A stretch of 64,000 nt of DNA from Arthonia radiata (Eukaryota > Ascomycota > Arthoniomycetes > Arthoniales > Arthoniaceae). The stretch spans positions 3,178,336 through 3,242,335 of the forward strand of contig PSQN01000016.1 of NCBI GenBank assembly GCA_002989075.1, read 5' to 3'. A model generated the notes under the pieces. That model was not told the DNA's origin, made no database searches, and worked only from the letters and a program-made list of their open reading frames with translations. The stretch's first letter is position 1; each line of letters opens with the position of its first letter. The position numbers were made by a program, and so were the translations under genes. Below are positions 4,459-7,593 of the stretch, piece by piece.

Positions 4459-7400
4459 CTACAGCTTCGCCTTCTCAACATCCAACTCTGCGCCCGCCCC
4501 CGCAATACAAAGCTTCCCCGTCTCCACCACCACCATCTGAAACACAACCCGATTCCCCTCCTTCCACATCTCCGTCCGCAAACTCTGCCCCGGCACAACC
4601 GTCCCCGCAAACCTGACCTTCACATTTTTGAACAGCCCGTACGTCTGCACGACGTGCTTTCCCGCGATTCCGAAGAAGCAGAGTCCATGCAGGATCGGCT
4701 GCTTGAACCCACCCACCGCCGCGAAACTCGGGTCGATGTGCAGCGGATTGTAGTCGCCGCTCAACCTGTACAACGCCGCCTGATCCGGGAACGTCGCCTC
4801 CGTGACGCTCGCGTCTGGTTTCCGCTGAGGGGGTTTGTGACTCGCCGTCGCGGCCCCGCGGTCCGGCGTGGATTTCGCGCCGCCGAATCCCCCGCTGCCC
4901 CGCACGAACAAGGCCATCTCCTGGTAAAACAACTCCCTTCCAGAATCTTTGTCCACCATCGTCGTACCCACGGTCACCACGCCCGCGGATCCTTTGTCCA
5001 CGACGTCCACGAGCTTGGGGTAGCAGACCAGCGTGCCCTCGGTGGGAATCGGCCAAGACTTGATTTCCAGGTATTGCTCGCCGTGCAGCAGCATCATGAC
5101 GGAGAAGTTCGGGAGGATGTCAGACATGGAAAAGGGAGCGGCGGCGTTTAGGGAGGGAATGACTCCGAAGGTGGGGATGGGCCCGAAGTCGTCGGCGGAT
5201 TCGTAGACGAGGGGGAGGTCCTTTCGCGTGGCGCCGATACCGAGATTGTAGAGGATGATGTCGCGGTGGGTGTAGGTGTACTCGGAGCCGCTTGACTTGA
5301 GTGTCTTCGCGTGCGCGATGCGCTTGTTGTAGTCGGGGTTCTCTTCGTCGTCGGCGGTATCGGTGTCGCCTTCAGTGGGCGTGGGAGCAGCAACGGATGT
5401 GTCATCTGGTGGAAGGTATCCATTCAGCATACAAATATTTACATTGGTGAGGACAGTACATGAGGAATCATAGCTTACTCTTCCCGCCCTTGTTCTCGCT
5501 GTTTGCCATGATGCTCTGCAGACCTGCGCTGGAGTCTGATGGGTTATCGGCGCGGCCGTCGTCGAAGTTGACAATCTTGGCCATTTGCTGTGCCACGTGC
5601 TCTGGTGTTAGCTTCACGTCCACGGGGAAACCGTGTCCGCCAGAACGCTGCCATCGGGTTTGCCCTTGCCAGCCGCAACCGACTTCGTAAAGCTGACCTG
5701 TTGGGTCTGGCGCGGAGTCTGAGCAGAGCAGTGCGACTAGGGGGGCGACATAATGAGGCTTGAATGCTTGCACGATCTCCTCGGGCATGATTGTGCGTGT
5801 CATGGCCGTTCCAGCGTTGGGAGCGATTGTGTTGACAAAGATGTTGTATTTCTGGCCTTCTAGAGCGAGTGCACGTGAGAAGCCGAGGATGCCGCACTTC
5901 GCGGCTGCGTAATTGGCCTGTCCAAAGTTGCCGTAGATACCGCTGGTCGAGGTGGTGTTCAGCACGCGACCGTACTTCTGCTTGAGAAAGTACGGCCATG
6001 CCGCTTTCGAGCACTTGTATGTACCGCGTAGATGCGTATTCATGACCGGAAACCAGAGGTTGTCGTCCATGTTGTTGAAGGCCTTGTCGCGGAGAATGCC
6101 GGCGTTGTTGACGAGGATGTCGATGCGGCCGTATGCATCAATGGCGGCTTTCACAATGGCATCGCCATCTTCGCAGCTGAACTTCGCGGGGACAGCTTCA
6201 CCTCCGGACTTCTTGATCTCTGAGACCACATCATCTGGGTTCATAAGGTCGTTAACGACGATTTTGGCGCCGAGTGCGGCGAAAAGCAGGCAGTAGCTGC
6301 GGCCGAGACTGTAAATAGTCAGTAGGTGAACGCACAAGGGAGAGTGGTGATATCGCATACCCAGCACCGCCACCAGTAACGACTGCGACTTTGTCCTTCA
6401 ATTCGACATTAGACTTAGACTTGTTGCTCGGCAGCTTCATAGCATCCTGAAGCAGCTCCATGAAGTTGTTGACGCCAGTCGGATATTGTGGCTTCGAGAA
6501 ATCCGTGACCTTGTCCCAATTATCCAAGATCGAGCCAGCGTTGAAAGTGTCATCTGGCTTGAGCAATAGGCCACCTGAGCGCTCCCACCGTAACTTCGCC
6601 ATGTGTCCGCCGCCCACCTCGAAAATTGAGCCGGTCTCCTTTGTATTTGACGAGTGGACGAGGACAGCCACGAGCGGGACAATGAAGTCAGGCTTGAGCT
6701 GAGCAAGAATGTCTGGTGGCATGACCGTTTCAGTCATCCTTGAGGCAGCGATGGGAGCAATGACGTTGCATAGGATGTTGTACTTGACGCCCTCCTTTGC
6801 TAGAGATTCCGTGAAGCCGACCAGGCCGAGCTTAGCCGCTGCTTCATGTCAGCCATGAGGGTACTGACGATGGTCATCCAGGACATACCGGAGTAATTCG
6901 TTTGGCCGAAGTTACCGAAGAGACCTGCTGCTGAAGCAGTGTTGATTACTCGGCCAAACTTTTGCTTTCTGAAATGCGGCCATGCTGCTCTAGAGCACTA
7001 GACGACTCATTAGCCAATGCTGAGCTTGCTGTCTGCGGCGCTGAGGGTTTCCCCACCTTGTATGCGCCCGTGATGTGCACAGTCATAATCAGGTCCCAAT
7101 CCTTGTCTGTCATGTTCTTCAAGCTGACATCTCGCAGGATGCCCGCATTGTTGATCAGGATGTCTATCCTCCCAAAGTTCTGGATGGCAGTATTGATGAT
7201 TGCCTCGCCATTTTCCACCGAGTCATAATTGGCAACGGCGTTGCCACCAGCCTTCTTGATCTCGTCGACGACCACATCTGCGGCCTGCAAGCATACTCCG
7301 TAAGCCTAGGTCCAGCAATGTTCGTCGAGGTGCTGCTCATACCGCTGTAGAGTTGCCCTCACCCTTGAAGGACCCACCAAGGTCGTTGACGACGACATTG

Positions 7401-7593
7401 GCACCCCTTGAGCCAAATAGTAGTGCATAAGCTTTCCCTAGCTATAAGCCGCAGTCAGCATCGCATATGTACGACTGGACAAGAAGCTCGGATTTAAACC
7501 ATGGCATTCTTTGTGGGGTTGAACACTCACCCCACCGCCAGCGCCGGTGACAACAACGGTCTGGCCGTCGTAGCGAAGTTCTTGAGACATCAT
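4459..7593 (-). CDS. FOX2: Peroxisomal multifunctional enzyme type 2 (Fox2): (3R)-hydroxyacyl-CoA dehydrogenase / enoyl-CoA hydratase 2
   Basis: Predicted exons (minus strand) 7593-7531, 7441-7343, 7284-7057, 6997-6889, 6838-6361, 6308-5479 and 5405-4459 give 917 aa, normal for fungal MFE-2. It performs the second and third steps of peroxisomal beta-oxidation. Two short-chain dehydrogenase domains are visible: SDR1 from residue 6 with TGAGGGLG and NYSAAK, and SDR2 from about 318 with TGGGAGLG and NYAAAK. They are followed by a hot-dog hydratase-2 domain with the signature [10 protein letters not shown]. The protein ends in AKL, a PTS1-type peroxisomal signal. The acceptor at 6838 was chosen to restore NYSAAK. 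A second in-frame ATG lies at codon 2. A CCGAGG hexamer, the core of FarA/FarB fatty-acid response sites, lies 90 bp upstream. The last intron has an unusual property, described in the findings. Confidence 0.95.

Follow-up and report, generated by a model that had tools for sequence, protein, structure and literature searches.

Retention of the last intron of the MFE-2/FOX2 gene in Arthonia radiata would give a reading frame that ends in Ser-Lys-Leu, a second peroxisomal signal (PTS1) beside the one at the natural C terminus. The locus raises the question whether this tail marks an isoform that the fungus uses or arose by coincidence. Positions given below are those of the window, i.e. the whole stretch of 64,000 nucleotides that was analysed. 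We suggest that the SKL-stop of the retained intron is a coincidental cryptic PTS1, and place the probability of this reading at roughly 0.78. The measured features lean towards coincidence over a used isoform.

MFE-2/FOX2 and a stand-alone hydratase 2

The MFE-2/FOX2 gene lies on the minus strand and is modelled from the sequence with seven exons, 7593-7531, 7441-7343, 7284-7057, 6997-6889, 6838-6361, 6308-5479 and 5405-4459. In brief, exons 1-5 with their introns (6361..7593) encode dehydrogenase A and the first part of dehydrogenase B, exon 6 (5479..6308) encodes most of dehydrogenase B and the start of the inter-domain linker, and exon 7 (4459..5405) encodes the rest of the linker, hydratase 2 and the natural C terminus. 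The Pfam matches are adh_short (PF00106) in exon 6 and MFE-2_hydrat-2_N (PF22622) and MaoC (PF01575) in exon 7. Translation of the spliced model gives, as initially annotated, an enzyme of 917 aa with the hydratase 2 domain and a peroxisomal signal, AKL, directly before the stop. The C terminus of A. niger FoxA is likewise described as AKL (PMC8140964).

Structure and Pfam matches agree on two (3R)-hydroxyacyl-CoA dehydrogenase domains in tandem, with hydratase 2 behind them. In a PDB search, the dehydrogenase fragment of C. tropicalis MFE-2 (2et6) aligns over residues 9-593 and hydratase 2 (1pn2) over residues 647-918, both numbered on a 918-aa model that has one Ala more than the 917-aa model. 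The acceptor of intron 4 (6839-6844) is a NAGNAG site, AAGCAG, of which the 917-aa model uses the second AG; use of the first would add one more Ala in the NYSA(A)AK motif of dehydrogenase A.

Searches of the own genome (33.5 Mb) with exons 6 and 7 found no second gene with both dehydrogenase and hydratase parts. At E <= 1e-20, the exon 6 search (43 candidates scored) matched only the two dehydrogenase parts of MFE-2 itself. The exon 7 search (four candidates scored) returned MFE-2 itself, 70 residues of a long frame on contig C13, and a second hydratase-2-like frame at C10:186690-187250 that is 36% identical. By its predicted product, MFE-2/FOX2 is an ordinary fungal gene for peroxisomal multifunctional enzyme type 2.

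The frame on C10 belongs to a putative stand-alone hydratase 2 of the MFE-2 type, located on the plus strand at C10:186375-187358 (L065:176-1159) and ending VKVTEVKSKL before the stop. It carries the MFE-2_hydrat-2_N and MaoC domains, and in a structure search it matches hydratase 2 and MaoC structures, some of them peroxisomal. Its 5' exon appears to be located further upstream in a different frame. Because this hydratase 2 has an SKL end of its own, a dehydrogenase-only MFE-2 need not lack a partner. Its predicted existence makes such an isoform biochemically more plausible, though it is no evidence of its production.

Splicing and retention of the last intron

The last intron (5406..5478, minus strand) is 73 nt long and in phase 1, with the donor AGA/GTAAGC and the acceptor CCACCAG; it begins with GTAAGC after an A, as the initial annotation had stated. 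The two frames could be spliced together through any of 22 GT-AG pairs of 40-220 nt. Only in the pair 5478-5406 does a GTRNG donor occur together with a CAG acceptor and a branch-like site, and the gene model is thus well founded independently of cDNA. The choice of donor among these pairs does not affect the tail, as the unspliced frame ends in SKL-stop in every case.

The branch-like sites of the last intron are CTCAC and CTGAA, 42 nt and 18 nt from the acceptor end respectively. It has no CTRAY site, and among the six introns such a site is otherwise missing only from intron 2, which has CTTAC at 16 nt; four of the five other introns carry one (CTGAC or CTAAT) at 10-13 nt. The predicted U1 pairing of the donor is -5.3 kcal/mol, and that of the other five is -4.4, -5.2, -5.4, -9.3 and -10.1 kcal/mol. 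The value falls within this range, and we dropped a weak donor as an argument for retention. As far as sequence signals go, the last intron allows some retention and does not predict it.

When the intron is retained, and only then, the stretch 5468..5479 is read on the minus strand as AGT AAG CTA TGA, Ser-Lys-Leu-stop. Translation bears out the earlier reading of the unspliced frame, AAG AGT AAG CTA TGA or K-S-K-L-stop, with its end at 5468. The truncated product would, as had been claimed, contain both dehydrogenase domains, lack the hydratase and end in SKL, and its length is 605 aa (ending GGKSKL), not about 640. The claim that a donor in this phase always encodes Ser-Lys does not hold: this requires both a GTAAG donor and A as the last exon base. 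The last intron has A at position -1, which accounts for the Ser of the tail, and the other five introns have G.

The stop after residue 605 falls in the inter-domain linker. The alignment with the dehydrogenase fragment 2et6 ends at residue 593, and the first residue aligned to hydratase 2 is 639-647 in chains 3kh8, 1s9c and 1pn2, and 621 in 7mku. With 604 residues, 2et6 has nearly the same extent and boundary as the predicted 605-aa form, and its structure was solved alone, which shows that a chain of about this length folds. We take 2et6 to be an engineered fragment of C. tropicalis MFE-2, not a natural isoform.

These features invite the reading that retention of the last intron is regulated and selected, and yields a 605-aa protein of dehydrogenases A and B that enters peroxisomes by its own SKL. 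The proposed effect would be more dehydrogenase relative to hydratase 2, or a pairing with the stand-alone SKL-ended hydratase 2. This reading draws on the canonical tail at a linker stop, the separately solved dehydrogenase fragment, the stand-alone hydratase ending VKSKL and the lack of a CTRAY site. The same material counts against coincidence: a prototypical PTS1 appears in a gene for a peroxisomal product, at a boundary that leaves a foldable unit. The missing CTRAY site, the A at -1, the second hydratase 2 and the rarity of donors with SKL-stop add to this.

Against a selected isoform, both C termini, AKL and SKL, are predicted to act as PTS1. The two forms would share one compartment, and dual localisation, the usual gain from such splicing, is absent. 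The early stop is a further difficulty. Retention sets the stop ahead of the last exon, which is 947 nt long, and decay of the RNA is predicted from the early stop in the retained frame. Since it is the last intron, its retention would leave no exon junction downstream of the stop, and nonsense-mediated decay (NMD) might be milder for this reason. In Yarrowia, retained introns lead almost invariably to premature stops, are, according to the authors, mostly NMD targets, and are for the most part first introns (PMC2911113).

Two further reports on filamentous fungi, neither of them about this MFE-2 gene, speak in favour of retention. In Cladosporium fulvum, alternative splicing is described as taking the form of intron retention more often than any other (PMC11694984). 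In Trichophyton rubrum exposed to undecanoic acid, 290, 165 and 879 retained introns are given for 0, 3 and 12 h, respectively (PMC5802734). Retention that shifts with undecanoic acid makes fatty-acid-tied retention not far-fetched, and this speaks for a selected isoform.

The other five introns of MFE-2 bear on a milder version of selection. In that version retention is noise, and weak selection keeps the PTS1 as a fail-safe that prevents the truncated enzyme, a possible dimer partner of full-length MFE-2, from being stranded in the cytosol. It would explain the same anatomy of linker stop, foldable unit and SKL. On retention, none of the five other introns gives a PTS1-like tail (0/5 by translation), and we regard a fail-safe as very unlikely.

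The last intron also holds an ATG (5428..5430, minus strand) in frame with hydratase 2, which opens a 323-aa frame. The locus could in principle comprise two units, a dehydrogenase frame ending in SKL-stop and a hydratase 2 starting at the ATG at 5430, through gene fission or reinitiation. The gap of 37 nt between stop and ATG is too short for a terminator and a promoter, and the consensus ends of the intron, whose splicing restores the 917-aa MFE-2 order, speak against fission as well. We rejected reinitiation at hydratase 2 on RNA that keeps the intron, because three other, out-of-frame intron ATGs come earlier. We consider two units highly improbable.

For the preferred reading, a coincidental tail, we propose the following. 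Ser-Lys would come from the last exon base A joined to a GTAAG donor, a combination favoured by splicing itself, and Leu-stop would be chance. The unspliced RNA would be rare splicing noise, mostly removed owing to its early stop and downstream tail of about 1 kb. Any 605-aa protein made from it would be import-competent yet unselected.

Background rate of SKL tails

The probability of such a tail was estimated from 264 kb of the own genome, comprising the window and 20 stretches of 10 kb; the sample includes the SKL-stop site itself. In six-frame translation, SKL stands before 13 of 19,107 stops (0.07%), [SAC][KR]L before 50, and the PTS1-like motif [SAC][KRH][LM] before 66 (0.35%). Of 146 AGTAAG sites on the two strands, counted whatever their nature, 4 (2.7%) run on into Leu-stop, and the base composition of the six MFE-2 introns gives an expectation of 0.5%. 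In view of these rates, the initial annotation was too strong in calling Leu followed at once by a stop unlikely by chance.

For the six introns of MFE-2, the six-frame rates predict about 0.004 SKL tails and 0.02 PTS1-like tails. Assuming 100-150 introns in peroxisomal genes, which is an estimate and not a count, the expectation per genome is about 0.07-0.1 SKL and 0.35-0.5 PTS1-like tails. A chance SKL tail at an intron of a peroxisomal gene would, at this assumed number, be expected in roughly 7-10% of genomes, and scanning many windows will turn up similar cases. For Saccharomyces, about 1% of genes are reported to have a PTS1-like motif in the 30 bp after the stop when all frames are counted, with few of these motifs common to several species (PMC4526572).

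Two home-made intron finders were run on the same 264 kb and dropped. The 76 introns called by the first had implausible donor bases, and of the six in MFE-2 only the last was correct. The second, at its middle setting, called 10 introns against 1 to 4 with decoys, and recovered one of the six (intron 5). The rates of SKL-stop and PTS1-like tails given above are independent of both.

Across the own genome, the pattern AGTAAGYTNTRA, which admits Phe codons and omits TAG, occurs 174 times, compared with 59 times for a backwards control. Among the 30 of these 174 sites that were examined, 25 read SKL and 5 SKF, at least 100 open codons lie upstream in 5, of which L022 alone connects to a long downstream frame, and no convincing retained-intron SKL-stop was found; the MFE-2 site belongs to the other 144. 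The only convincing intron donor among the 30 is in L022, around position 1501 (C1:1323808), and its tail is SKF-stop. There an apparent phase-1 intron, with the retained frame DDFSKF before the stop, joins 174 and 239 open codons. L030 contains the natural SKL-stop end of a putative acyl-CoA-dehydrogenase-like protein, as read from its translation, and the remaining sites with long upstream frames are L015, L023 and L036. In the list of 100 AGTAAGYTNTRA matches, AGTAAGTTATAA is found many times over, in several cases behind short frames that resemble each other (DTDSKL, DRITILYSKL); the number of SKL-stop sites is therefore probably inflated by repeats. Real donors with SKL-stop, and with them the MFE-2 case, look rare in this genome, but not beyond chance.

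Two glycolytic enzymes were considered for comparison. The phosphoglycerate kinase (PGK) gene of the own genome (L066, C2:499700-500560) ends ALSSK before the stop, and a donor-like GTGAGC overlaps the stop. Taken as a positive control, it revealed no cryptic PTS1, either by readthrough, with the tail AGAARKVEKIR, or by the splices tested. Two sets of splices were covered: GTRN[GT] donors close to the stop, allowing introns of at most 200 nt, and the donor overlapping the stop, combined with each AG in the rest of the 861 bases. In this it differs from the PGK of A. nidulans as described in PMC3798809. The family of the GAPDH C-terminal domain, PF02800, had no match in the own genome; such an absence is unexpected for a fungus, and perhaps reflects a gap or an intron-split gene.

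Searches for relatives with the exon 6 and exon 7 queries gave none in viral contigs. A search of genome contigs gave 13 loci, all bacterial by title and 41-45% identical, which are uninformative for a fungal intron.

These results weigh on the selected isoform. On the background rates chance is a possible alternative, the donor is not weak for MFE-2, and neither readthrough nor the tested splices around the stop reveal a cryptic PTS1 in the PGK gene. Taken with the early stop and the shared compartment, we judge a selected isoform unlikely. Quite unlikely, too, is the specific proposal that the fungus switches, by regulated retention of the last intron, from the three-domain enzyme to a dehydrogenase-only form with SKL that acts alongside the stand-alone hydratase 2 in peroxisomes.

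Comparison with known fungal systems

The precedent invoked by the initial annotation, alternative splicing that adds PTS1 signals to glycolytic enzymes of Ustilago and Aspergillus, is indeed described. In U. maydis GAPDH and A. nidulans PGK a cryptic PTS1 arises by alternative splicing (Freitag et al. 2012, as described in PMC3798809), and PTS1-changing splicing of this kind is a point for the selected isoform. The MFE-2 case would resemble them in that a choice in the splicing of one gene endows a C terminus with a PTS1. In GAPDH and PGK a cytosolic-type enzyme gains a peroxisomal isoform, for GAPDH via a C-terminal extension, whereas in MFE-2 both forms would be peroxisomal, the choice would drop a domain, and the isoform is a prediction from sequence.

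The malate dehydrogenase of Yarrowia lipolytica, whose alternative introns are 4 nt apart in length (Kabran et al. 2012, according to PMC3798809), resembles MFE-2 in that its PTS1 depends on splicing. Unlike in MFE-2, the difference lies in intron size and not in retention, and it alters the location of the enzyme and not its domain content. The fungal MFE-2 enzymes FoxA/Fox2 are, like the enzyme studied here, multifunctional hydratase/dehydrogenases of beta-oxidation with a natural AKL end, and the excerpts of PMC8140964 hold no mention of a dehydrogenase-only isoform of A. niger FoxA. In a literature search, no title or abstract opening among the matches listed concerned a retained-intron PTS1 isoform of a fungal MFE-2. 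The fungal splicing cases described in PMC3798809 switch location; a change of domain content at an unchanged address would add a new form to this kind.

If the isoform were real, intron retention would send a truncated enzyme to the same organelle and uncouple two catalytic steps that are normally fused in one chain. If the tail is due to chance, which we judge likelier, three-residue organelle tags arise easily at splice sites, where AGTAAG already reads Ser-Lys, and such tails call for conservation or RNA evidence before they are labelled as isoforms.
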